DNA from: a virus
Length of the DNA: 36,473 nt
Virus record (IMG/VR): IMGVR_UViG_3300043409_003192
Location: 1-36,473 of that record
Direction: 5' to 3' (one strand)
Shown: positions 17,755 to 32,597 of the stretch, piece after piece
How the letters are laid out: each line of letters starts with the position of its first letter
How positions within the stretch are numbered: the first letter of the stretch is position 1
Position numbers and translations under genes: made by a program
Notes under the pieces: generated by a model
Seen by the model: only the letters and a program-made list of their open reading frames with translations
The model's database searches: none
What the model was told of the DNA's origin: nothing

Positions 17755-18609
17755 ATGGCTGAAACACACAAAAGCAAATACAAGAAACCGGAAAATACAA
17801 AATATAAATCTAGAACAGATTTGAAAGATTATACAATGGATGATAAAGACGGAAAACTTAATCCATATTCAAATAAAATTAAACTATCAAATATTTTGCG
17901 TAAAACAGATAAACCTGTGCAAGATGATGGTAATTATGATGTAAAGTATAATGCTGATGATCGTTTATATAAAGATCTAGAAGATGCTGAATATGATGCA
18001 AAGCATGCAGCAAAAGTATTTAAAAAACGTCAAGATGCTGAAGAAAAAGATGTATTAGATGTTCTTAAAGATAAAGTTGAAAATCTTACGAGAGAGCAAC
18101 GTGAACGTTTAGTTAGAGAATATGTACGTAAAAAAATAGTGAAAGTTATTTTAGAACAAACCACTCCAAAAGATGCACCTGAAGAAGAGGCACTAGCACC
18201 AACAGCAACTCCAGATCCAAATGCAGCGCCAGATCCAAATGCAGCGCCGGCACCTGATGCAGCACCAGCACCTGATGCAGCACCAGCACCTGATGCAGCA
18301 CCAGCACCTGATGCAACAACACCCGCACCAGCCACAGCACCCGCAGCCCCAGCGCCAACCGATACTGCCGAAAAGGATGCCGAAAGTCAAGTATCTCCGG
18401 AAACTAAAGAAGCATTAGACGTCGATCGTTTTGTACAATATCTTAAAAAACAAGAAGGAAATATTGCAAAACTTAAATCAATTATCAAAGTAATTGGATT
18501 ATCATTAAATAAAGCGGAAGTTGAAGATAAAGCAAATGTTTGGAAAATGTTAAAGATTACGTCTAATAAACAATTAGCTAAATTGAATACACAATCAAAC
18601 AATAAATAA
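17755..18609 (+). CDS. Unknown protein with Pro/Ala hexapeptide-repeat linker
   Basis: This 284-residue protein has three parts. Residues 1-140 are highly charged and Lys/Asp-rich, with a helical stretch (NLTREQRERLVREYVRKKIV, about 110-129). Residues about 150-205 are a Pro/Ala/Asp linker of six hexapeptide units (PDPNAA then PAPDAA). A helical C-terminal domain follows (about 215-284). The linker DNA is much richer in GC than its surroundings. The family is not recognised. The domain-linker-domain plan suggests a tether, possibly a virion or head-associated protein, since it leads the operon that runs into terminase. It ends 1 nt before the next start. Confidence 0.5.
   Translation: MAETHKSKYKKPENTKYKSRTDLKDYTMDDKDGKLNPYSNKIKLSNILRKTDKPVQDDGNYDVKYNADDRLYKDLEDAEYDAKHAAKVFKKRQDAEEKDVLDVLKDKVENLTREQRERLVREYVRKKIVKVILEQTTPKDAPEEEALAPTATPDPNAAPDPNAAPAPDAAPAPDAAPAPDAAPAPDATTPAPATAPAAPAPTDTAEKDAESQVSPETKEALDVDRFVQYLKKQEGNIAKLKSIIKVIGLSLNKAEVEDKANVWKMLKITSNKQLAKLNTQSNNK
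18211..18318 (+). repeat. Six 18-bp tandem repeats inside a coding region
   Basis: Units start at 18211, 18229, 18247, 18265, 18283 and 18301. The first two read ccagatccaaatgcagcg; the last four are close to ccagcacctgatgcagca. Each encodes one hexapeptide of the Pro/Ala linker. The repeats are in frame and likely vary in number by slippage. Confidence 0.9.
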
Positions 18610-19958: not shown

Positions 19959-21536
19959 ATGTCTCAATTAACAATAAAACAGATTATTCAGCAACAATAT
20001 CAAATGTGTGCTAAAGATCCTGTGTTTTTTATGAGACAATATTGTTATATACAACATCCTAAAAAAGGAAAGATAAAATTTAATTTATTTCCATTTCAGG
20101 AAGACTCATTAACTGAATTACGTGACAACCGATACAGTGTAATATTAAAATCACGACAATTAGGAATATCAACTCTGGCAGCAGGATTTGCACTATGGAG
20201 TATGTTATTTAATGAAGATTTCAATGTACTTGTTATTGCAACAACACAAGAAGTGGCAAAAAACTTAGTAACCAAAGTTCGTGTAATGCACGATAATTTG
20301 CCAAGTTGGCTGAAGGGAACGGTTGATGCAGATAATAAACTTTCACTTAAATTCCGTAACGGGTCGCAAATTAAAGCAGTATCATCCGCTTCCACCGGTG
20401 CACGTTCAGAAGCATTATCATTGTTGATTATAGATGAAGCTGCATTTATTAGGAACATTGAAGAAATATGGATAGCATCACAAGCAACCCTATCAACGGG
20501 TGGGGGCGCAATAGTTCTTTCAACACCAAATGGGGTCGGTAACTGGTTTCATCAAACATGGGCAGATGCAGAAGCTGCAATTAATGGTTTCCACACAATT
20601 AAATTGCATTGGACCGTACATCCAGAACGAGATCAACCATGGCGGGATCAACAAACACAATTATTAGGCGAACGTGGAGCAGCTCAAGAATGTGACTGTG
20701 ATTTTATTTCATCAGGTCATACCGTAATCGATGGTTCTATATTAATGGAATTTGATGAAAAATGTATAGATCCAATTGAAAAACGAGGTTATGACAATGC
20801 ATATTGGATTTGGGAATATCCAGATTATTCCCGCGATTATATGGTTATTGCTGACGTTGCTCGTGGAGATGGTGGTGACTGGTCAACATTCCATGTTATA
20901 GACACATTAGATGTACGGCAAGTAGCCGAATACAAAGGTAAAATTCCTCCTAATGATTTTGGAAACATGTTAGTTACTGTTGCAACAGAATGGAACAATG
21001 CATTGCTAGCAATTGAAAATGCAAACATAGGTTGGGCTGCAATTCAACCAGCATTAGATAGAGGCTATCAAAATCTGTTTTATACCTATAAAGATGATGG
21101 ATATACCGATGCTGATGTACAATTAAAAAAAGGTTATGATATGAAAGATAAGAGCCAAATGGTTCCTGGAGTATCAACAACCACACGTACACGTCCATTA
21201 ATGATATCAGCCCTTGAAATGTATATGCGAGAACGAACTCCTATAATTAGATCAAAAAGATTAATACAAGAATTATTTGTATTTATTTGGTTGAACGGAA
21301 AAGCTCAGTCACAAAGTGGTTATAATGATGACCTTGTAATGGCATTCTGTATTGGGTTATGGTTACGCGATACCTCACTTAAATTGCGACAACAAGGCAT
21401 TGAACTTAATAAGCGCGCCTTATCACATTTTACAAAAACCGATCCGGTTATATACACAAACAACCAAAAACGACAAGATACTGGTTGGACATGGAACAAT
21501 GGAAATACCGACGAAAGTTTAACTTGGTTGTTGTAA
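19959..21536 (+). CDS. Terminase large subunit (gp17-like)
   Basis: This 525-residue packaging motor and nuclease cuts and pumps DNA into the prohead through the portal. ATPase motifs are SRQLGIST (65-72), LLIIDEAAF (155-163, D159/E160) and LSTPNG (187-192). The nuclease domain has IADVARGDGGDWS (297-309, first catalytic Asp D299) and YNDDLVMAF (about 455-463). Walker A lacks the usual lysine (T4 has SRQLGKT), a variant I believe occurs in other phage terminases. T4 gp17 is 610 residues, so this one is shorter. It starts 1 nt after the previous stop without a Shine-Dalgarno and is followed by portal; tail sheath and tube genes, which separate these two in T4, are not here. Confidence 0.93.
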   Translation: MSQLTIKQIIQQQYQMCAKDPVFFMRQYCYIQHPKKGKIKFNLFPFQEDSLTELRDNRYSVILKSRQLGISTLAAGFALWSMLFNEDFNVLVIATTQEVAKNLVTKVRVMHDNLPSWLKGTVDADNKLSLKFRNGSQIKAVSSASTGARSEALSLLIIDEAAFIRNIEEIWIASQATLSTGGGAIVLSTPNGVGNWFHQTWADAEAAINGFHTIKLHWTVHPERDQPWRDQQTQLLGERGAAQECDCDFISSGHTVIDGSILMEFDEKCIDPIEKRGYDNAYWIWEYPDYSRDYMVIADVARGDGGDWSTFHVIDTLDVRQVAEYKGKIPPNDFGNMLVTVATEWNNALLAIENANIGWAAIQPALDRGYQNLFYTYKDDGYTDADVQLKKGYDMKDKSQMVPGVSTTTRTRPLMISALEMYMRERTPIIRSKRLIQELFVFIWLNGKAQSQSGYNDDLVMAFCIGLWLRDTSLKLRQQGIELNKRALSHFTKTDPVIYTNNQKRQDTGWTWNNGNTDESLTWLL

Positions 21537-21583: not shown

Positions 21584-23419
21584 ATGGCATCATTAAGAAA
21601 ACGATTACAAAATCTATTTGCTACGAACGTTATCGTACGGGCATATGGAAAAGACCAAATTAAAGTTATAGATACCAATCGATTACAATCGATGGGCAAT
21701 CTAAATCAAACAAAAGTTGCTGACAGATATACTCGATTGCATGGTTCAAATCGCCATCGCGTTGGCGGTCATGGTGGGTATGATTCAAACTATTATATGC
21801 AACAAAATCGTATGCAGTTATACACTGATTACGAAATGATGGATAAAGACCCAATCATAAGTGCTGCATTAGATATTTATGCAGATGAATCAACTCTAGC
21901 AGATCAATTTGGCGATATGCTAACAATTAAAACAAATAAAACTCACATACAAAAAATACTTTATAATTTATTTTATGATGTATTAAACATAGAATTTAAT
22001 CTTTGGCCATGGATTCGAAATATGACTAAGTACGGCGATTTCTTTTTAAAACTAGATATTGCTAATGAATTAGGTATTATTAATGCCCGTCCATTTTCTA
22101 GCTACGAAGTTGAACGATGGGAAGAATTTGCTGAAGATACTGGAGAATATAAAATTAAATTCCGGCACGCATCTAGTCCAGGCTTAATGTATGATGTATT
22201 TGAAGTAGCCCATTTTCGAATGTTGTCAGATTCAAATTTTTTACCATATGGTAAATCAATGTTAGAAGGTGCTCGTAAAGAATTCCAAAAATTGACAATG
22301 TTAGAAGATGCAATGCTTATTCACAGAATTATGCGCGCACCAGAAAAACGTATTTTTAAAATTGATATTGGTAATATTCCGCCAAATGAAGTAGATACTT
22401 TCATGGAACAAGTTATCAATAAAATGAAAAAAATTCCACACGTTGATGTACAAACCGGTAATTACAATTTGAAATTCAATTTGAACAACATGTTGGAAGA
22501 TTATTATTTACCAGTTCGCGGAGGTCAATCATCTACATCAATAGACACATTACCAGGAATGACTTTTACAGGTATTGATGATATCAATTATGTTAAAGAC
22601 AAAATGATGGCTGCACTTAAAATTCCTAAACCATTTTTAGGGTATGCGGAGGCTGTTGAAGGTAAAACTACCTTAGCATCAATGGATATTCGATTTGCTA
22701 GAACAATTGAACGAATTCAAAAAATAGTAACATCAGAATTATATAAAATTGCAATTGTTCATTTATATGCACAAGGATATGAAGGTGAAGATTTAATTGG
22801 TTTTGAATTAGAATTAACAGCGCCATCAATTATATATGATCAACAAAAAGTTGCATTAATGACAGAAAAAATGACATTAGCAACATCAATGAAAGATTCA
22901 AAATTAGTTTCTGATAAATACATATATGAATACATCTTTAATATGACCGAAGAACAATGGTTATCAGAACGTACCAATGTAATTGAAGATTTAAAATTAC
23001 GTTTCCGTCAAAACCAGCTTGAACAAGAAGGTAATGACCCAGCTGTTACTGGAGTGTCATATGGTACACCACACGATTTAGCATCAATGCATATGAGTTC
23101 AGACGATGTTGAAGAAAAAGACAAAGGTGGCCGACCAAAAGAAGGAATTAAATTTGGACAACATAAAAATGCATTTGGGTGGGATCCTACCGGCAAAAAA
23201 GAATTAGATCAAGCATTTGATGTAGATAATCAAAAATCTGCATTTTTACCAGATCCTAGACGAGAACGTAAATTAGATTTAGCACATGAAAGTGTTATAA
23301 AAATAATGAAAAATTCAAAATACACAAAAACATCTAATATTATTTTAGAATCACTAGTAAAACCTAATCCAGGTGATTCTGATGCAGGAACCCTATTAGA
23401 CGAAAATAATATTTTATAA
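21584..23419 (+). CDS. Portal protein (gp20-like)
   Basis: This 611-residue protein forms the dodecameric ring at the head vertex through which DNA enters and leaves. It has features of T4-type portals: MDKDPIISAALDIYADES (about 86-103), a central segment with FLGYAEAVEGKTTLASMDIR (about 349-368) and a following helix (FARTIERIQKIVTSELYKIA). Length is close to T4 gp20 (524) with a longer, charged C-terminal tail (about 500-611). It follows terminase and precedes the protease-scaffold-capsid set, as expected. It has its own candidate promoter and no Shine-Dalgarno. Confidence 0.92.
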   Translation: MASLRKRLQNLFATNVIVRAYGKDQIKVIDTNRLQSMGNLNQTKVADRYTRLHGSNRHRVGGHGGYDSNYYMQQNRMQLYTDYEMMDKDPIISAALDIYADESTLADQFGDMLTIKTNKTHIQKILYNLFYDVLNIEFNLWPWIRNMTKYGDFFLKLDIANELGIINARPFSSYEVERWEEFAEDTGEYKIKFRHASSPGLMYDVFEVAHFRMLSDSNFLPYGKSMLEGARKEFQKLTMLEDAMLIHRIMRAPEKRIFKIDIGNIPPNEVDTFMEQVINKMKKIPHVDVQTGNYNLKFNLNNMLEDYYLPVRGGQSSTSIDTLPGMTFTGIDDINYVKDKMMAALKIPKPFLGYAEAVEGKTTLASMDIRFARTIERIQKIVTSELYKIAIVHLYAQGYEGEDLIGFELELTAPSIIYDQQKVALMTEKMTLATSMKDSKLVSDKYIYEYIFNMTEEQWLSERTNVIEDLKLRFRQNQLEQEGNDPAVTGVSYGTPHDLASMHMSSDDVEEKDKGGRPKEGIKFGQHKNAFGWDPTGKKELDQAFDVDNQKSAFLPDPRRERKLDLAHESVIKIMKNSKYTKTSNIILESLVKPNPGDSDAGTLLDENNIL

Positions 23420-24304: not shown

Positions 24305-25059
24305 AATCATTCTTACAACAAATAGAAGAGGCATTTGAAGCTGTTGATACTCCTAATGATATTATTGATGAGCAAGAAAACTATGTAACTGATCCATCTA
24401 ATGAAGATTTAGAATTAGAAGAAATGTCAACTTCTGGGGCTGTTGGTTCATATATGACTCCTAATGCATTTTCAAATGCACCTAATTCCACAGTTCAGTC
24501 TGGCGGAATGAAACGGGTCAAAAATGTACGAGAAGGTATTAATACTCCTCCGAATTATAGATCAGGCGAATATCAAAAACCAGAATCTGAAGAAGAAGAA
24601 TATATGGATAAATTTCCGTTTGCTGACGATGACCAGAAATGGCAACATGCAAAATTTAAGTATCCTACAGAACCATTAGTAGACAAATATAGAAAATACA
24701 GCGATCGTCCTGCACATGTAACGGAAAAATCAAGTGTTGAATATGATTGGTCAGGTGTAAAAAATAAAACTAATGAAAGTGTATATGAAACAATGGATAA
24801 CAAATATGAACAACTCATTGAATCATACCGCAATTTCAAAAAAGGTGATGTAAAACCATCTAGCAAAGTAAAACAGACAATACAAGAAATTGCAATGAAA
24901 CTTCGCGAAATAGAATCATTGGTAAGTAATAATGCACGACTAAAAACGGAATCCGGTGTGACTTCATCACATTATGGACCATCGACAAACAAAGCATTGA
25001 ATAAGATATCTGAACGATTAATAAAAATATCTGAACGAGTAAGAGCATTAGGAGAATAA
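24301..25059 (+). CDS. Acidic, low-complexity protein of the prohead region
   Basis: This 252-residue protein has a strongly acidic N-terminal third (many Asp/Glu, LEEMSTSGAVGSYMTPNAFS), a central charged region rich in Lys, Tyr and Pro, and a helical C-terminal part (about 170-252). It appears largely disordered. Its place directly before the prohead protease matches the T4 core proteins gp67/gp68, which are acidic and processed by gp21; this is inference from position and charge. It is coupled to the previous gene by ATGA and followed 1 nt later by the protease, whose Shine-Dalgarno (AGGAG) lies inside its last codons. Confidence 0.5.
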   Translation: MKSFLQQIEEAFEAVDTPNDIIDEQENYVTDPSNEDLELEEMSTSGAVGSYMTPNAFSNAPNSTVQSGGMKRVKNVREGINTPPNYRSGEYQKPESEEEEYMDKFPFADDDQKWQHAKFKYPTEPLVDKYRKYSDRPAHVTEKSSVEYDWSGVKNKTNESVYETMDNKYEQLIESYRNFKKGDVKPSSKVKQTIQEIAMKLREIESLVSNNARLKTESGVTSSHYGPSTNKALNKISERLIKISERVRALGE

Positions 25060-25060
25060 T

Positions 25061-25690
25061 ATGTCAAAGCAGTTAATAGTAGAATATATACCATTTAAAC
25101 CAATAGGTGCATTAAATGAGAAAAGTGGTGCTGCATATGGAATTCCTGGTGGATATGTTGTTCAAGGAGTATTGCAACGGGCTGGTGCTAAAAATCAAAA
25201 CGGTCGAGTATATCCTAAAAATATATTGATGCGCGAATGCCAACGCTATCAACAAGAATATATTGATCAACACCGAGCATTAGGTGAATTAGATCATCCA
25301 GAATCATCAGTAGTCAATTTAAACAATGTTTCACACAATGTTTTAAAAATATGGTGGAATGGCGATGATTTATTAGGAGCAGTTCAAATACTAGAAACTC
25401 CGTCTGGCAATATTTTAAAATCATTGTTCAAAGCAGGAATTACTTTAGGTATTTCGAGTAGAGGATTAGGGTCAGTTAAAGAATTGCGAAATGAAGGTGT
25501 TGTAGAAGTACAAGAAGACTTTGAATTAATTTGTTGGGACTTCGTATCAAATCCATCGACTCAAGGTGCTTTTATGCGGCCTACTGGCATGAATGAATCA
25601 ACAAATAAAAATATAGCAACAAATAAATATAATGGTGTAAATGGTATTATTACGTCAATTTTATGCGAAGATGGGAAATGTAGGATATAA
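25061..25690 (+). CDS. Prohead core protease (gp21-like)
   Basis: This 209-residue serine protease of the T4 gp21/herpesvirus-assemblin type would cleave scaffold and capsid precursors during head maturation. Visible family motifs are NGRVYPKNIL (47-56), GELDHPESS (75-83, catalytic His H79), ITLGISSRGLGS (127-138, catalytic Ser S132 or S133) and ICWDFVSNPST (157-167). T4 gp21 has 212 residues, so it is full length. AGGAG at 25050-25054 sits 6 nt before the ATG, a better ribosome site than those of the preceding genes. It stands before the scaffold and capsid genes as in T4, though three extra genes intervene. Confidence 0.9.
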   Translation: MSKQLIVEYIPFKPIGALNEKSGAAYGIPGGYVVQGVLQRAGAKNQNGRVYPKNILMRECQRYQQEYIDQHRALGELDHPESSVVNLNNVSHNVLKIWWNGDDLLGAVQILETPSGNILKSLFKAGITLGISSRGLGSVKELRNEGVVEVQEDFELICWDFVSNPSTQGAFMRPTGMNESTNKNIATNKYNGVNGIITSILCEDGKCRI

Positions 25691-26154: not shown

Positions 26155-27111
26155 ATGAATAAATTAAAAAAATTGTATAAAGACTTCTTTGGATATACGC
26201 TTAATGAAGCTGCACATGTACCATCCAATATAATGGATTTTGCTAAAAGAAAAGGGCCATATGTAGTAGCACTTGTTAAGAAAGCGGCTACGTGGGCAGA
26301 GAAATCTGGCAAACAAATTAGTGGTGGCACTGCTATTGGTAAAAATTATAATACCATTATTCTAGATATTAAATATCAAGGAGCTGAAATCTATATTAAT
26401 CTCGATAACGAAACAATTAAATTATTTGGAGAACCAGTTACCGATGCAAAATCATTTGCTCGTGTTTTTAATGGTATTGGTATGTCTAATTCAGATAATG
26501 TAATATTTTCAATTAACGATGAAAAATTAGATGATATATTACGTGCAAATCATGATCGAGAATTAGACTATAAAAAAGATGTAACTGGCGATGTATATTA
26601 TATTTTACCTAAAAAAGAATTCGATCGATTTATTGATTATGCAGATTCGTCTGGATATGATGTAGATTATGAAAATTCAGAAGATTCGGTAATTTATGTT
26701 AGAGATTCTGATACTAATTTACGGGAACAAGCCAACGGCAATGGTTCAACTAAAGAACCAGAACTAGACGAAGCTAAACTAGTTAATGGTATTGATGAAT
26801 ACCAAGGCGGAGTTGTATATGCAATCAAAGATCCAGCACAAGCACAAGCACTTTCTGATGATATTAAAGCGTGGGTTGAAAAAAAAGGTTTTACTATAAT
26901 TAAACGTACAATATCTAAAAGTGGTAAGAATGGATATTTTTATTTTAGATTAGGTGAAGATCCGGCTAAAGATGCGCAACGCATTCAAGGTTATTTTGCA
27001 CAACGTTTAGAATTAGCAGCATTCAAATTCAAAGTACGCGGTTCTGAAAACTCAGTTAGCAAATCACCAGCACCTGAAATGCAAACCAAACAACCAATAA
27101 GAAAAATTTAA
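26155..27111 (+). CDS. Unknown two-domain protein of the head module
   Basis: In this 318-residue protein, residues 1-115 and about 205-295 look like two separate alpha/beta domains, joined by an acidic stretch (about 125-200, VDYENSEDSVIYVRDSD). The C-terminus is basic and Pro-rich. It contains 'LNEA' and 'LDEAKL' near the likely domain edges, a flavour often seen in large-phage core proteins cut by prohead protease, but no cleavage site can be assigned. The family is not recognised. It ends 9 nt before the bS21 gene, so these two are co-transcribed and end at the terminator at 27391. Confidence 0.45.
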   Translation: MNKLKKLYKDFFGYTLNEAAHVPSNIMDFAKRKGPYVVALVKKAATWAEKSGKQISGGTAIGKNYNTIILDIKYQGAEIYINLDNETIKLFGEPVTDAKSFARVFNGIGMSNSDNVIFSINDEKLDDILRANHDRELDYKKDVTGDVYYILPKKEFDRFIDYADSSGYDVDYENSEDSVIYVRDSDTNLREQANGNGSTKEPELDEAKLVNGIDEYQGGVVYAIKDPAQAQALSDDIKAWVEKKGFTIIKRTISKSGKNGYFYFRLGEDPAKDAQRIQGYFAQRLELAAFKFKVRGSENSVSKSPAPEMQTKQPIRKI

Positions 27112-27120
27112 AACAGTTAT

Positions 27121-27366
27121 ATGAGTAAAAAAGAAAAACAACACAAATCAATTGTACCTGGCCATGCAACCGCAGTACATGTAGTAGGAACATTTAGAGA
27201 AGATTTTGCACAAGCAATGAAAATTTTTAAACGCAAAGTAAAATCGTCTGGTGTTTTAGAAAAAATTAAAGAAAATAAAACTTTTACAAAACCAAGTGCT
27301 AAACGTAGACAACAATTAAGCGCGGCTCGTTTTATTCAACATGTACGGGATTTGCACCGAGACTAA
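27121..27366 (+). CDS. rpsU: Phage-encoded ribosomal protein bS21
   Basis: This 81-residue homologue of small-subunit protein bS21 has the core FREDFAQAMKIFKRKVKSSG (25-44), followed by VLEKIKEN and FTKPSAKRR (55-63), which matches the bS21 layout: helix with FKR, Gly turn, then KPS and a basic helix. The C-terminal part (ARFIQHVRDLH, 69-79) resembles the extension of flavobacterial bS21, where as I recall a Tyr-Ile/Val-Gln occurs; here the aromatic is F71. About 20 extra N-terminal residues precede the core. In Bacteroidota ribosomes bS21, with bS18 and bS6, helps hide the anti-Shine-Dalgarno. Phage bS21 has been reported before and is linked to late expression. A terminator follows 25 nt later and the scaffold-capsid operon begins after it. 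It has no Shine-Dalgarno of its own. Confidence 0.85.
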   Translation: MSKKEKQHKSIVPGHATAVHVVGTFREDFAQAMKIFKRKVKSSGVLEKIKENKTFTKPSAKRRQQLSAARFIQHVRDLHRD

Positions 27367-27390
27367 TTGAATTTATTTTAATATATTAAG

Positions 27391-27418
27391 CCCTAGCCTA
27401 AAAAGTTAGGGTTTTTTT
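27391..27418 (+). terminator. Intrinsic terminator after bS21
   Basis: A 7-bp stem, CCCTAGC / GTTAGGG (27391-27397 and 27405-27411, one G-U pair), is followed by seven T. It separates the 25-27 kb genes from the scaffold-capsid operon. Confidence 0.85.
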
Positions 27419-27439
27419 ACTGGTTTTTTGTTCATGCCC

Positions 27440-27449
27440 ATATTTATTT
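27440..27449 (+). promoter_or_regulatory. Candidate promoter ATATTTATTT for scaffold-capsid operon
   Basis: The core TATTTATT at 27441-27448 matches the late motif at 7 of 8 positions and lies just after the terminator. If used, it gives a leader of about 100 nt before the scaffold ATG, far longer than elsewhere in the window. Confidence 0.4.
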
Positions 27450-27450
27450 G

Positions 27451-27523
27451 TAGAATACGCTATTCTATCTTATATAGCGTTACATAATTTTTATATTCTT
27501 ATTAAGATTTACAAATAATCTTA
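27451..27523 (+). promoter_or_regulatory. Structured 5' leader of scaffold-capsid mRNA
   Basis: Three perfect 7-bp inverted repeats are present: TAGAATA/TATTCTA (27451-27457 and 27461-27467, loop 3), ACGCTAT/ATAGCGT (27457-27463 and 27474-27480, loop 10) and TAAGATT/AATCTTA (27503-27509 and 27517-27523, loop 7). The first two share bases and cannot form together. They may protect the 5' end or regulate the operon. A run of 14 A follows at 27529-27542. Confidence 0.5.
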
Positions 27524-27545
27524 TTTCCAAAAAAAAAAAAAATTT

Positions 27546-27552
27546 AAGGAGA
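27546..27552 (+). promoter_or_regulatory. Strong Shine-Dalgarno AAGGAGA for scaffold
   Basis: AAGGAGA ends 6 nt before the ATG at 27559 and follows an A14 tract. This is a canonical site in a window where most genes have none. Confidence 0.85.
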
Positions 27553-27558
27553 ACTAGT

Positions 27559-28620
27559 ATGGCAAAATCAGATTTGCTAAAACAAGCAATCGCCGATGCA
27601 AAAGCAGTTAAAGAAACAGCATTAGCAAACGCAAAAATTGCATTACAAGAAGCATTTGCTCCAAGACTTGAAAGTATGCTACACAACAGCTTAGTAACCG
27701 AACTTGAAGACGATGACACAGACGTTAACATGGATATGGATGCAGATCTAGAAGCAGGTGCTGAAATGGGTGCTGAAGCAGGTGCTGAAATGGGTGCCGA
27801 AGCTGGTGCTGAAATGGGAGGATTTCCAGATTCAGTAAACGTTGGATTAGATTTCAATGATGATGGCGATTATGATTTAACTGGAATGTTAGGTGGTGAA
27901 GACGAAGAAGCAGGTGCTGTAAATGGTGTTGCTGCTGGTGCTGAAATGGGAGCGGAAGCTGGTGCTGAAGCTGGATTAGAGGCTGAAGAAGATGATCTTA
28001 ATCTTGAAGAAATTTTAAGAGAATTAGAAGAACCGGTTGATGCCATGGAAACGGAAGGTATGTATCATGAAGGTATGTATAATGAAGAAGAAATGTCAAA
28101 TGCAAATATGCCAATGGGTGGTATGGATCCAGAAGAGGATGATACTGACATTAACGAAATCATTGAAGCAATTCTACGTGAAGAAGATGCGATGTCAGGC
28201 GATGTTGCACCAACAGAAGACCCAGCATTATTAGCTAAAGAAAATGAAGAATTAACACAAAACTTAGAAGAAGCATACCGTACGGTTAAACACCTTAGGT
28301 CTGTTATCAACGAAGTTAATCTTTTAAATGCAAAACTTCTTTACACAAACAAGTTGTTCCGTAACTTTGATTTGAACAACGGACAAAAAATGAAAGTTAT
28401 TGAAAACTTTGATAGAGCATTTTCAACTAGAGAAGCAAAATTAGTATTTGCTACTTTAGCAGAAAGCTTTAACAAACCACAACAAAAACGCAAGATGGTA
28501 AAAGAATCCGCAGCATCTAGAGCAAGTTCTACGACTGCACCATCTCGACAAACAACGCAAATTTTATCTGAAGGTTTCGAAATGGCAAACCGTTGGAAAA
28601 AATTAGCAGGATTAATTTAA
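27559..28620 (+). CDS. Prohead scaffold/core protein (gp22-like)
   Basis: This 353-residue, strongly acidic protein sits between protease and capsid genes, where T4 has the main scaffold gp22, and has a strong ribosome site. Residues 1-45 are helical. Residues about 50-145 are an Asp/Glu/Ala/Gly/Met region built on EAGAEMGA octapeptides. Residues 225-310 form a helical and coiled-coil domain (LLAKENEELTQNLEEAYRTV). The end is ANRWKKLAGLI, which I associate with capsid-binding tails of large-phage scaffolds. The scaffold would fill the prohead and be degraded by the gp21-like protease. Sequence identity with T4 gp22 is not obvious, so the call rests on position, charge and expression signals. 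Confidence 0.75.
   Translation: MAKSDLLKQAIADAKAVKETALANAKIALQEAFAPRLESMLHNSLVTELEDDDTDVNMDMDADLEAGAEMGAEAGAEMGAEAGAEMGGFPDSVNVGLDFNDDGDYDLTGMLGGEDEEAGAVNGVAAGAEMGAEAGAEAGLEAEEDDLNLEEILRELEEPVDAMETEGMYHEGMYNEEEMSNANMPMGGMDPEEDDTDINEIIEAILREEDAMSGDVAPTEDPALLAKENEELTQNLEEAYRTVKHLRSVINEVNLLNAKLLYTNKLFRNFDLNNGQKMKVIENFDRAFSTREAKLVFATLAESFNKPQQKRKMVKESAASRASSTTAPSRQTTQILSEGFEMANRWKKLAGLI
27751..27822 (+). repeat. Three 24-bp tandem repeats in scaffold gene
   Basis: Units start at 27751, 27775 and 27799 (gaagcaggtgctgaaatggg plus tgct or a variant) and encode EAGAEMGA. Degenerate copies (GAEMGAEAGAEAG) recur at about 27936-27978. The repeats are in frame, so gain or loss would change only linker length. 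Confidence 0.85.
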
Positions 28621-28637: not shown

Positions 28638-28645
28638 AAGGAGAA
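28638..28645 (+). promoter_or_regulatory. Strong Shine-Dalgarno AAGGAGAA for major capsid protein
   Basis: AAGGAGAA ends 5 nt before the ATG at 28651, in an A-rich 30-nt spacer without a promoter motif. The capsid gene is therefore probably read from the scaffold transcript. Confidence 0.85.
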
Positions 28646-28650
28646 AAAAA

Positions 28651-30291
28651 ATGAGTTTAAATTCATTATTACAAAGTCCTGATAATTCTCAGAGAGCAGC
28701 TGCACAAGCAGGTGTTCGTAAATGGGAAAGAACAGGATTGTTAGAAGGTCTTAGAAATGAGACAGAAAGGGCAGGAATGTCTCAATTGCTTGAAAACCAA
28801 GCAAGACAATTAGTAAAAGAAGCATCACAAACAGGTACCGCAAATGGATCTGAAGAGTGGGCTGGTGTTGCACTTCCATTGGTACGTCGTATCTTTGCTG
28901 AATTTGCAGCTAAAGAATTTGTATCAGTTCAACCAATGAACTTACCATCAGGTCTAGTATTTTACTTAGATTTTAAATATGGTACAGCTCAGCCAGGATT
29001 TGACAATGACAATTCTAATAGAACAGGTGATCCATTTGGTAATCCTAATGCATTAGATTCATTGTTTGGTGTTACATCAACTGGTTCTGACGCAGCAGGT
29101 GGTCTTTATGGTGCAGGCCGTTTTGGTTATTCAATCAACGAAACATCTAGTGTTGCAGCGGCAGTTACTACTGGTTCTTTGGCAGGATCTGGATCTGTTA
29201 ATTATGATGGTAATTTTACAACTGCATTGACTTCTTATAAAAGAATCACTGTTGCAACTTCTTCATTACCTGGTTTAGATCCGTTGGCAATACGTTCATT
29301 TGCATTAGTTTCTGGATCAACTCCAATTGCTAATTATGCAGCATTTACTAAATTAAATGAAACAACTCAAGGTTCTGTTGACTTCATTATTGATTCAGCA
29401 GCAGTAACAACTGGTTCTTTCTCATTAACAGTTAAATATAGCAAACAACCAACTGATGTTTCAAGAGGTGATTTTGAAGATAACGTTGGTACTTTTTCTA
29501 ATGGATACAATGTAGATGTTGATATTCCAGAAATTAACTTGGAACTTCAATCAGATCCAATTGTTGCAAAAACACGTAAATTGAAAGCAGTTTGGACTCC
29601 TGAGTTTGCTCAAGATTTGAACGCATATCATTCAATTGATGCAGAAGCTGAATTGACTTCAATGTTATCTGAGTATGTATCAATGGAAATTGATTTAGAG
29701 ATCTTAGATATGTTGATTTCTGCGGCTCCAACAACTGAGTTTTGGTCAGCATTGAACAATAACATCTGGAATGGTAATGGATTTACACAAGCAGCAGCTG
29801 GTTCAGTTGGTACTGCAGGTGACGGATTCTATAACACTCAAGGTGGTTGGTTCCAAACTTTAGGTACTAAGCTTCAAAAAGTATCTAATAAGATTCACCA
29901 AAAAACATTACGCGGTGGTGCAAACTTCTTAGTAACATCTCCTTCAGTAGCAACTGTTCTTGAGTCTATCCCAGGATTTGCTGCAGACACTGATGGTACA
30001 AAAATGGAATTTGCTGCCGGTGTTCAAAAAATTGGTGCAATCAATAACCGATACACAGTATACAAAAACCCATACATGACAGAGAATGTAATACTTATGG
30101 GCTTCAGAGGTAGTCAGTTCCTTGAAACGGGTGCTGTTTATTCTCCATATATTCCACTTATCATGACTCCATTAGTGTACGATCCAGTTAACTTCACTCC
30201 GCGTAAAGGTGTTATGACACGTTACGCGAAGAAAGTGGTTCGTCCTGAGTTCTACGGTAAAGTGTATGTACACGGTCTTAATACTCTATAA
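28651..30291 (+). CDS. Major capsid protein (gp23-like)
   Basis: This 546-residue subunit of the head shell has T4 gp23 (521 residues) family features: an N-terminal helical region (1-57), then EWAGVALPLVRRIFAEFAAK (69-88), FVSVQPMNLPSGLVFYLDFK (about 90-109), and a C-terminal part with MTPLVYDPVNFTPRKGVMTR (about 508-527). LVKE|AS at residues 54-59 is a plausible prohead-protease cleavage site, since family proteases cut after Glu; this is inference. Codon use is more uniform and the Shine-Dalgarno is the best in the window, as expected for the most abundant protein. A strong terminator follows 36 nt after the stop. Confidence 0.95.
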   Translation: MSLNSLLQSPDNSQRAAAQAGVRKWERTGLLEGLRNETERAGMSQLLENQARQLVKEASQTGTANGSEEWAGVALPLVRRIFAEFAAKEFVSVQPMNLPSGLVFYLDFKYGTAQPGFDNDNSNRTGDPFGNPNALDSLFGVTSTGSDAAGGLYGAGRFGYSINETSSVAAAVTTGSLAGSGSVNYDGNFTTALTSYKRITVATSSLPGLDPLAIRSFALVSGSTPIANYAAFTKLNETTQGSVDFIIDSAAVTTGSFSLTVKYSKQPTDVSRGDFEDNVGTFSNGYNVDVDIPEINLELQSDPIVAKTRKLKAVWTPEFAQDLNAYHSIDAEAELTSMLSEYVSMEIDLEILDMLISAAPTTEFWSALNNNIWNGNGFTQAAAGSVGTAGDGFYNTQGGWFQTLGTKLQKVSNKIHQKTLRGGANFLVTSPSVATVLESIPGFAADTDGTKMEFAAGVQKIGAINNRYTVYKNPYMTENVILMGFRGSQFLETGAVYSPYIPLIMTPLVYDPVNFTPRKGVMTRYAKKVVRPEFYGKVYVHGLNTL

Positions 30292-31352: not shown

Positions 31353-31362
31353 AAGGATTACT

Positions 31363-32586
31363 ATGGATTATTCACAAAGTTCACCAATATGGCCCGGCAG
31401 TTCGTCATTTACAACTGGCTCAACTCCATTCGGTTTCTTTGATGCCGATCCGGTATTCCAATCTCATGCAGATAAATTTGCTAAATTTGCCGCAAACACT
31501 GTTGGATATCCAATTATGGATGTTGAACTTCAAGATGTAAATTTTTATACAGCATTTGAAGCTTCGGTAGTTGAATATTCAAATCAAGTTAATCAAGTAA
31601 ACATTGTTAACAATTTATCAAATACCGTTGGTATGCCTACCGCATCTGCATTTATTGGCGCCTCTGGATTAACCGGAAAAGCCGTAGGAACATCATTATC
31701 ATACATTGTTAAATTAAGCAAAGCATATGGTACTGAAGCAGAATCTGGCGGTACTGTTCGATGGCATTCTGCATCATTTGACATAGTTCCTGGAAAACAA
31801 ACATATAGTATTAGAGAAGCAGTGTCAGCATCATTAGGATTTGTATTAAGCAATACTAGTTCAATTGAAATTCGTCGAGTATTACATAATCCACCGCCAG
31901 CAATTGTTCGGTATTTTGACCCATTTGTTGGAACTGGTTTAGGTTCTCAAGGTTTAATGGATGCATTTGATTTTGGAGGATTTTCGCCTGCAGTTAATTT
32001 CATGATGATGCCAATACACGCAGATTTATTGAGACTTCAGTCGATTGAATTCAATGACCAAATACGTAAATCACATTTCTCGTTTGATATTCATGGCGAT
32101 GATCTTAGAATATACCCAGTACCAGGAGCACGTGGATCTGCTGCAACTCCGTATTTTGGTAATGTGTGGTTTGAATATTTATTTGAAGAACAAAAAAATC
32201 AAGAAGCTCTATTATTTGGTAATACCGCCGTTTTAAACGGTGTTATAAGTGACGCATCAAATATACCATATACCTATCAACAATACGAGACAATTAATGA
32301 TATGGGGCGCGCGTGGATATTACGTTACGGTGTTGCACTTGTAAAAGAAATGTTAGGCTATGTCCGCAATAAATATTCATCAGTTCCTATACCAAATGGC
32401 GAAGTAACACTAAATGGATCTGATTTAGTATCACAAGGTCAAACAGAAAAAGGTGAATTGGTAACACAATTACGAGAATTTTTAGATAAAATGACAAAAG
32501 AGGCGATGCTAACCCGTCAAAACGTAGAAGCAACACAGATGAATGAATTGTTAGGTAAAGCACCATTACGTATATACGTTGGATAA
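31363..32586 (+). CDS. Putative neck protein (gp13-like by position)
   Basis: This 407-residue virion protein has a conserved-looking helical segment VELQDVNFYTAFEASVVEYS (about 50-69), of the type 'xFyxAFExAvxEYs' seen in neck or head-completion proteins of large myoviruses. A beta-rich middle and a helical C-terminus (GELVTQLREFLDKMTKEAML) follow. Together with the next two genes it forms a trio after the capsid gene that is consistent with T4 gp13-gp14-gp15. It would then sit at the portal-tail junction. The assignment rests mainly on order and my recollection of the motif. The stop overlaps the Shine-Dalgarno of the next gene. Confidence 0.55.
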   Translation: MDYSQSSPIWPGSSSFTTGSTPFGFFDADPVFQSHADKFAKFAANTVGYPIMDVELQDVNFYTAFEASVVEYSNQVNQVNIVNNLSNTVGMPTASAFIGASGLTGKAVGTSLSYIVKLSKAYGTEAESGGTVRWHSASFDIVPGKQTYSIREAVSASLGFVLSNTSSIEIRRVLHNPPPAIVRYFDPFVGTGLGSQGLMDAFDFGGFSPAVNFMMMPIHADLLRLQSIEFNDQIRKSHFSFDIHGDDLRIYPVPGARGSAATPYFGNVWFEYLFEEQKNQEALLFGNTAVLNGVISDASNIPYTYQQYETINDMGRAWILRYGVALVKEMLGYVRNKYSSVPIPNGEVTLNGSDLVSQGQTEKGELVTQLREFLDKMTKEAMLTRQNVEATQMNELLGKAPLRIYVG

Positions 32587-32597
32587 GGAGATAAATT

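Follow-up and report, generated by a model that had tools for sequence, protein, structure and literature searches.

A phage bS21 with an N-terminal extension and the Shine-Dalgarno sequences that accompany it in T4-like phages

Among the ribosomal proteins that phages encode, bS21 is described as much the commonest (PMC9976891), and what phages gain from it has, so far, only been hypothesised. That a phage bS21 substitutes for the host protein is itself a published hypothesis (PMC9723584; PMC9976891, which cites PMC9723584 and Mizuno 2019) and, as cited in PMC9976891, the bS21 of Pelagibacter phage HTVC008M is incorporated into E. coli ribosomes. The fold is described as two helices joined by a loop, and the phage bS21s studied by Chen et al. 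2022 keep an aromatic residue at position 54 that should preserve stacking on A1534 (PMC9723584). Tyr54 is described as uniquely conserved in Bacteroidia (PMC9976891). In F. johnsoniae, the Y54A mutation and C-terminal deletion of bS21 raise translation that depends on the Shine-Dalgarno sequence (SD); the regulation there needs very strong SDs, below -13, and a strong SD has been reported upstream of cellular rpsU (McNutt 2023, PMC9976891). The Bacteroidota species among those listed in PMC10783764 have SDs at 0.1-7% of their genes, most of them at 1-3%.

We describe here a bS21 gene in a 36,473-base linear IMG/VR fragment, referred to throughout as the window, of a T4-like phage whose terminase, portal, protease and capsid genes were identified with PHROGs. 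The locus resembles those of the freshwater Bacteroidetes myoviruses of Chen et al. 2022 (PMC9723584), in which bS21 also stands beside terminase, portal, protease and capsid genes, position 54 is aromatic (Tyr in 54 of 61, another aromatic in 7) and substitution of the phage protein into host ribosomes late in infection is proposed, as it is here. Theirs have bS21 on the reverse strand; here all 119 bS21 loci among the matches listed have their best bS21 match on the strand of the capsid gene, as does the window. The available text of that paper holds no analysis of phage-gene SDs that we could find. With the rpsU autoregulation of F. johnsoniae the phage system shares the bS21 family, the C-terminal signature that contacts the 16S tail and a bS21-controlled SD switch, but the cellular arrangement, a strong SD on rpsU and none on virtually all other genes, is the inverse of that in the phage (McNutt 2023, PMC9976891). 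The rpS21 of huge phages likewise has an N-terminal extension rich in basic residues, predicted to aid ribosome binding or initiation on phage mRNA (Al-Shayeb 2020, PMC7162821); unlike here, we found nothing in the available text of that report that ties the type of rpS21 to where SDs occur, and SDs are discussed there with rpS1. The term Shine-Dalgarno is absent from the main text of PMC6375957. The replacement idea is already published, and in the literature searched, which lay outside subscription papers and preprints, we found no report linking phage bS21 or its type to the SDs of phage genes.

Two annotated phages, Microcystis phage Mel-JY01 (PP395634) and Flavobacterium phage immuto (MW353175), encode relatives of the capsid, terminase, portal and protease of the window, and their gene order is that of the window. 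By capsid the nearest is immuto (59.5% identity, with Mel-JY01 at 56.2%) and by terminase Mel-JY01 is the nearer (56.4% vs 54.4%). Mel-JY01 differs from the window in that its bS21, its one PF01165 match, is Lys-type and the gene for it also has an SD. In immuto, which differs in having no PF01165 match in its whole record, there is no SD at the protease, scaffold or capsid genes and the genome-wide SD fraction does not rise above background.

The bS21 gene and its surroundings

Judged by its profile matches, the open reading frame at 27121-27366 encodes a genuine bS21. The protein matches Pfam PF01165 (E 2.7e-12, 46.6 bits against a cut-off of 27), NCBIfam TIGR00030 (33.2 against 28.95) and PHROG 21469, ribosomal protein S21 (E 5.5e-6), which bears out the 81-residue homologue that a sequence-only reading of this DNA had proposed, pending an HMM search. 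Nor is it a chance frame, since relatives have the gene as well and share the arrangement protease - bS21 - scaffold - major capsid protein: seven IMG/VR loci carry a bS21 of the window type, at 62-99% identity, in the same gene order and on the same strand. Among annotated records of cultured phages, matches to two Tyr/Phe-type bS21 queries were few and weak, 3 records for this type and 6 for the second query. Among cultured phages the residue at position 54 was read in Mel-JY01 (Lys) and LR756508 (Met) only.

The gene sits between the protease and scaffold genes and is preceded by one other gene (26155-27111). The features of the region, all on the + strand, are as follows.

19959-21536, +, terminase large subunit, without an SD (PHROGs, SD scan)
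21584-23419, +, portal protein, without an SD (PHROGs, SD scan)
25050-25054, +, SD of the prohead protease gene, AGGAG, shared by the 7 IMG/VR rows compared, of which three are identical in this stretch
25061-25690, +, prohead protease, gp21-like (PHROG 207, E 2.7e-54)
27091-27120, +, initiation region of bS21, no SD, duplex energy 0.0 kcal/mol
27121-27366, +, phage bS21 (rpsU-like) gene, ATG frame of 81 aa with profile matches, Phe71 at the Tyr54 position
27388-27414, +, hairpin resembling a terminator, immediately following bS21, a stem of 10 pairs and then a T run
27415-27545, +, conserved scaffold-capsid leader with inverted repeats ACGCTAT...ATAGCGT and AAGATT...AATCTT, seen by eye in the alignment
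27546-27551, +, SD of the scaffold gene, AAGGAG, in the window and 6 aligned relatives
27559-28620, +, gene for an acidic protein of 353 aa, probably the scaffold (prohead core), so called from its position between protease and capsid
28638-28643, +, SD of the major capsid gene, AAGGAG
28651-30291, +, major capsid protein, gp23-like (PHROG 138, E 1.1e-66)
31353-31357, +, weak SD of gene 31363, AAGGA
32585-32590, +, SD of gene 32598, AAGGAG (AAGGAGG in L013)

Among solved structures the protein is best matched by the F. johnsoniae ribosome 7jil (PMC9723584), whose chain z aligns at residues 10-60 with residues 27-77 of the window protein. The core motifs K-R-K and K-P-S are in register with the solved protein, with FKR at residues 36-38 and KPS at 57-59, as the earlier reading had noted, and F71 falls on Tyr54 of F. 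johnsoniae, in keeping with the Tyr it had expected there. Its C-terminal ARFIQ extension is not one: ARFIQ aligns without a gap to the AAYIQ of F. johnsoniae in a normal C-terminal helix, and the extension is instead N-terminal, of 17 residues by the numbering offset in the same alignment. An AlphaFold model of the protein (mean pLDDT 78.6, pTM 0.46) has helices at 26-43, 45-51 and 60-80, and a Foldseek search of the model against the PDB gave no match with E <= 0.001.

Phe71 is aromatic and not Tyr, which is the residue in 9 of the 11 rows compared. Among the closest relatives, L003, L005, L007, L008 and L017 have Tyr at this position and L002 shares the Phe of the window; Phe also stands at the equivalent position of the more distant L018 and L027. 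The earlier suggestion that F71 helps to release the anti-SD is rejected: the close relatives with Tyr have capsid SDs of the same strength as those with Phe (-8.3 to -8.9), and Phe is, moreover, still aromatic.

That reading had also placed the gene directly upstream of a scaffold-capsid operon. The order is right, but 192 nt, with the hairpin and the leader, lie between. The hairpin (-12.1 kcal/mol, z -2.2) is equalled by 6 of 200 shuffles and a scan of the region for terminator hairpins found 1 where shuffles give 1.1, i.e. not above chance. Hairpin and leader are kept in the 6 aligned relatives, and by eye the stem is changed on both sides in L005 and L008. The leader repeats also show paired changes by eye, ACGCTAT/ATAGCGT in the window being ACGTTAT/ATAACGT in L007.

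A separate repeat, TATTTATATAAA, has six exact + strand copies in the window (3579, 12561, 15610, 21564, 31340 and 30367, the last inside a gene), five of which begin 20-30 nt before a start codon. Allowing at most one mismatch, both strands hold 11 matches against 2.7 expected, several being the mirror of the same site. It looks like a phage late promoter, and transcripts starting there could have very short leaders. Elsewhere, the protein encoded at 17755-18609 has Pro-Ala-Asp repeats (APDAAPAPDAA) in its middle part.

Shine-Dalgarno sequences and bS21 carriage

Of the 32 genes of the window, 9 can pair with the 16S tail at -5 kcal/mol or stronger, only about twice the rate among internal ATGs, 12.5% of which reach this value. 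The mean duplex is -3.0, against -1.35 in 300 shuffles (sd 0.27) and -2.03 at 833 internal ATGs. In each of the 7 IMG/VR rows compared, the protease, scaffold and capsid genes keep their SDs amid flanking bases that differ. The fraction of SD genes is 0.28, 0.29, 0.17, 0.47 and 0.26 in the window and four Tyr-type contigs (shuffled 0.06-0.10), 0.26 and 0.23 in two Arg-type contigs, 0.45 in the Mel-JY01 stretch, and 0.05, 0.01 and 0.03 in three bS21-less contigs (shuffled 0.03-0.05).

In the bS21 contigs scored, the motif stands at canonical SD spacing above background, as judged by AGGA/GGAG counts per position at spacers 4-10 and 21-40. In the window clade (163 genes) these peak 5-8 nt before the starts and come to 8.9 vs 0.6; three other Tyr-type contigs (361 genes) give 15.7 vs 2.25 and two Arg-type contigs (292 genes) 10.3 vs 1.45, and there is no such concentration in bS21-less contigs (390 genes; 1.1 vs 4.2). 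A control duplex with the reversed 16S tail was positive in 62 of the 68 aromatic-type loci among the matches listed; we set it aside as uninformative, since motifs of the AGGA type can pair with a reversed tail as well, and SD specificity therefore rests on the spacing test.

Genes within 25 kb of the capsid gene and on its strand were compared with the rest of each contig, leaving out G003, the capsid gene of which is split between fetched pieces. In the bS21 contigs scored, SDs are denser near the capsid than elsewhere. They stand at 15/45 vs 14/130, 22/36 vs 18/50 and 15/33 vs 11/67 genes in three Tyr-type contigs, at 12/26 vs 35/155 and 11/25 vs 14/86 in two Arg-type contigs, and at 1/48 vs 8/139 and 0/29 vs 1/87 in bS21-less contigs.

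For a wider comparison, five capsid scans, each giving the best 80 of 600 pattern matches, were pooled into 262 unique capsid loci (among the matches listed). PF01165 was found in 48 of the 84 records searched whole, namely 80 capsid loci among the matches listed and 4 phage records; absence of bS21 refers to the whole record in those 84 and to the fetched flanks in later loci (4.3 kb upstream in L306). The bS21-less class is limited to loci for which 4 kb or more of upstream sequence was available; 65 of the 262, with no bS21 but less than 4 kb, were set aside, and 35 of these 65 have a capsid SD (among the matches listed). An aromatic residue occupies position 54 in 68 of the 119 phage bS21s among the matches listed (Tyr 55, Phe 12, His 1).

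Across the phages compared, bS21 carriage and SD use co-occur, a pattern that the sequences establish. With an SD defined as a duplex of -4.9 kcal/mol or stronger, a cut-off set after the first-scan data had been seen, the capsid gene has an SD in 66 of 68 loci with an aromatic-type (Bacteroidia-like) bS21, 40 of 51 with another bS21 and 6 of 78 without bS21 (among the matches listed), or 42/44, 33/44 and 4/55 with one representative per cluster of those matches. Scored by core motif, the same matches give 64/68, 41/51 and 11/78, where shuffling gives 5.5, 2.8 and 1.3. The first scan by itself (among the matches listed) had SDs in 30 of 30 Tyr/Phe, 24 of 26 Arg/Lys/Met and 0 of 17 bS21-less loci, with 19 loci not assigned, L011 and L079 being the Arg/Lys/Met exceptions and L091 lying at the cut-off line; a Fisher test on 70 rows (p 2e-14) ignores relatedness and we place no weight on it. 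In the six MAG contigs outside the first-scan set, which are part of the 262, bS21 and SD agree in 6 of 6: L152 has a Phe-type bS21 and a capsid SD of -11.7, and L149, L150, L151, L153 and L154 have neither in the fetched sequence (about 3.5 kb upstream in L153). The earlier supposition that late mRNAs of this phage carry SDs is upheld for its structural genes. Among the matches listed, 13 bS21 loci lack a capsid SD, and the six bS21-less loci with one resemble each other at the capsid N-terminus and have weak motifs (-5.1 to -5.8) of the AAGGAAA kind.

On a capsid tree of 194 of 197 rows among the matches listed (the 65 set-aside loci excluded, the rest lost to a length filter), bS21 changes 6 times and the SD 17 times. 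There are only 3 starred pairs that differ in bS21, of which 1.7 agree, 0.3 oppose and 1.0 show no difference (aromatic vs none: 2.1 the same way, 0.2 opposite, 0.7 no difference), and therefore a sign test cannot reach significance. Eleven starred pairs differ in SD and 9.8 of these are alike in bS21. The informative events are two places inside the Tyr clade, the L042 clade and L306, where bS21 and capsid SD are both missing, and L152, which has both, unlike the adjacent L031, L033 and L034, which lack both.

The feature of bS21 that tracks the capsid SD in these loci is the N-terminal extension. An extension of at least 8 residues is present in 99 of 106 loci with a capsid SD vs 3 of 13 without one (119 phage bS21s among the matches listed, uncorrected for relatedness). 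L307, with an extended Phe-type bS21 and no capsid SD, is an exception. Five unextended bS21s that begin MLI or MII like host bS21 (L414, L415, L417, L436 and L437) come without a capsid SD, and seven other loci have an unextended bS21 with a capsid SD (L273, L423, L424, L425, L433, L475 and L491).

The host and the leader of the bS21 gene

From sequence signals we infer that the host of the window phage belongs to the Bacteroidota, which is probable. The signals come mainly from the best 30 Bacteroidota and best 20 Pseudomonadota bS21 loci of profile scans, Pseudomonadota being the only other phylum compared and the phylum names resting on the labels of records L151 and L150, the centres of the genome sets. 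In these best-scoring loci a phage-only Tyr/Phe profile scores 50-64 bits on the Bacteroidota and at most 42.1 on the Pseudomonadota, and the selecting profile, which includes one F. johnsoniae fragment, reaches 79.5 vs 41.7 bits. Aromatic-type bS21 is, on these scores, closer to Bacteroidota than to Pseudomonadota bS21. The Arg-type profile gives 38-58 bits on the Pseudomonadota vs 34-51 on the Bacteroidota (best-scoring loci).

Agreeing with a Bacteroidota host are the best capsid match among annotated phages, which is to Flavobacterium phage immuto, and the GroEL of a Tyr-type contig (G019), with a best score of 737.7 bits in 61 Bacteroidota genomes vs 676.6 in 60 Pseudomonadota. Mixed signals come from the terminase, from L160, a bS21 on a MAG labelled Pelagibacter that scores 49.4 on the phage-only Tyr/Phe profile, close to the Bacteroidota range, from the spread of profile A3 over Bacteroidota genomes (E values of 6.4e-22 to 2.6e-6), and from the FolE of window-clade contig G003, a weak indicator with 321.7 bits in a Flavobacteriales MAG, where the match may lie on a phage contig, then 147.8, and 125 in Pseudomonadota. 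A capsid-based genome scan returned only 6 MAG contigs with conflicting labels (Maricaulis, Flavobacteriales, Woesebacteria, Pelagibacter and two without a taxon) and was not used for the host.

A promoter-motif test of the host was uninformative, the Bacteroidota-type motif occurring only in the bS21-less contig G032 and being absent from the known Flavobacterium phage. In G032 (L142-L146), which also lacks SDs, TTG-N-TANNTTTG, which we take to be the Bacteroidota-type promoter motif, occurs 10 times against 0.3 expected.

The phage bS21 gene itself is SD-less in the window and in the 7 IMG/VR rows compared, and no SD was found at any of 68 aromatic-type genes when starts were placed by a length rule of 56-93 codons (among the matches listed). 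Under a first-ATG rule 3 of 30 Tyr/Phe loci (L003, L021 and L026) had apparent SDs, which belong to upstream in-frame starts and were rejected. Other-type genes have an SD in 13 of 46 cases among the matches listed, several of the Mel-JY01-like group, with 5 of the 51 loci left out as they offered no usable start or leader. With starts as called, Bacteroidota bS21 genes have an SD of -13 or stronger in 22 of the 30 best-scoring loci, and the strong SD of cellular rpsU autoregulation is found neither at 27121 (0.0 kcal/mol) nor at any of the 68 aromatic-type genes among the matches listed. In its leaders, then, the phage inverts the wiring of cellular rpsU, its own bS21 gene being SD-less and its structural genes SD-led.

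Some Bacteroidota genomes (G196, G211 and G291) have two or three bS21 matches. The copies L187 and L190 have no strong SD before the start as called, and their middle part differs.

Possible roles of the phage bS21

Cellular Bacteroidia ribosomes hold the 16S 3' tail in a pocket of bS21, bS18 and bS6 and ignore SDs. In the mechanism that we propose, phage bS21 acts late in infection. This protein, keeping the C-terminal tail-contacting signature and adding a 17-residue basic N-terminal extension, would replace or outcompete host bS21 on the Bacteroidota 30S subunit, which could then initiate on moderate SDs such as those that precede the protease, scaffold and capsid genes of the phage and several of its other genes. 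Being SD-less, the phage bS21 gene could be translated by unmodified host ribosomes and would escape the host's bS21-dependent autoregulation.

That phage bS21 causes the use of SDs is our best reading, with roughly an even chance of being right, and the type of host is its main rival. The particular form in which an N-extended bS21 displaces the host protein on the 30S subunit, and so enables ribosomes that are blind to SDs to start translation on the SD-led structural mRNAs, we hold tentatively, at slightly below an even chance. A little less probable still is the fuller proposal that the extended protein makes dedicated ribosomes with SD recognition in SD-blind Bacteroidota, with the SD-less bS21 gene as trigger and structural SDs that evolved for them. 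Several observations weigh against a causal role. The phage SDs are moderate (about -5 to -9), unlike the very strong ones of F. johnsoniae regulation, the retained aromatic residue argues for continued sequestration of the tail, and independent bS21 events are few, the SD state mostly changing without a change in bS21.

Host type could yield part of the pattern, since Arg/Lys-type phages with SDs may infect SD-using hosts. As a full explanation, in which bS21 phages infect SD-using bacteria, bS21-less ones infect SD-blind Bacteroidota and the benefit of bS21 is another, such as supply during ribosome turnover, it seems unlikely, though it draws on real observations: Mel-JY01, whose recorded host is Microcystis, has a Lys-type bS21 and SDs, also at the bS21 gene, the Arg-type profile scores as high or higher on Pseudomonadota than on Bacteroidota, and the host phylum of the window phage is one that we infer. 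It sits poorly with the likeness of aromatic-type bS21s to those of Bacteroidota, where Tyr54 is described as uniquely conserved in Bacteroidia (PMC9976891) and SD genes are few in the species listed (PMC10783764), and the absence of SDs from aromatic-type bS21 genes would be odd in phages of an SD-using host. Improbable, in our view, is that the phage protein works as the host's does, sequestration included, and secures bS21-replete ribosomes while AAGGAG acts otherwise, through mRNA stability or on bS21-poor ribosomes made by infection. The prevalence of aromatic residues, mostly Tyr, at position 54 speaks for this, and phage bS21 may function essentially as the host protein (Chen et al., PMC9723584); the motif, however, is positioned as a canonical SD, is missing from two bS21-less parts of the Tyr clade, the L042 clade and L306, and is tracked by the N-terminal extension. 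The same two absences, of bS21 and SD together, speak against plain co-inheritance of bS21, extension and SDs in a few clades with no functional linkage, as do L152, which has both traits amid neighbours with neither, and the keeping of the SD while flanking leader bases change. With only 6 bS21 changes on the tree and a pair test that is underpowered, shared ancestry retains some force, but we consider it the least probable of these accounts.

Should the coupling of bS21 and SD use be mechanistic, the question of what phages gain from bS21 becomes directly testable with the existing F. johnsoniae system, and the phages would offer bS21 variants in a natural series, some extended and some not, with Tyr, Phe or Arg at position 54, for studying how ribosomes expose or conceal the anti-SD. 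Such coupling would also mean that a virus makes its own specialised ribosome, with an mRNA code that can be read. If the fuller proposal is true, a virus would add a second initiation code to host ribosomes and invert the host's rpsU feedback.

L049, compared with L039, L052 and L067, has Tyr at position 54 within an otherwise Arg-type lineage of bS21 phages, and L414, L415, L417, L436 and L437, with host-like unextended bS21 and Arg or His at position 54, form a natural contrast set.
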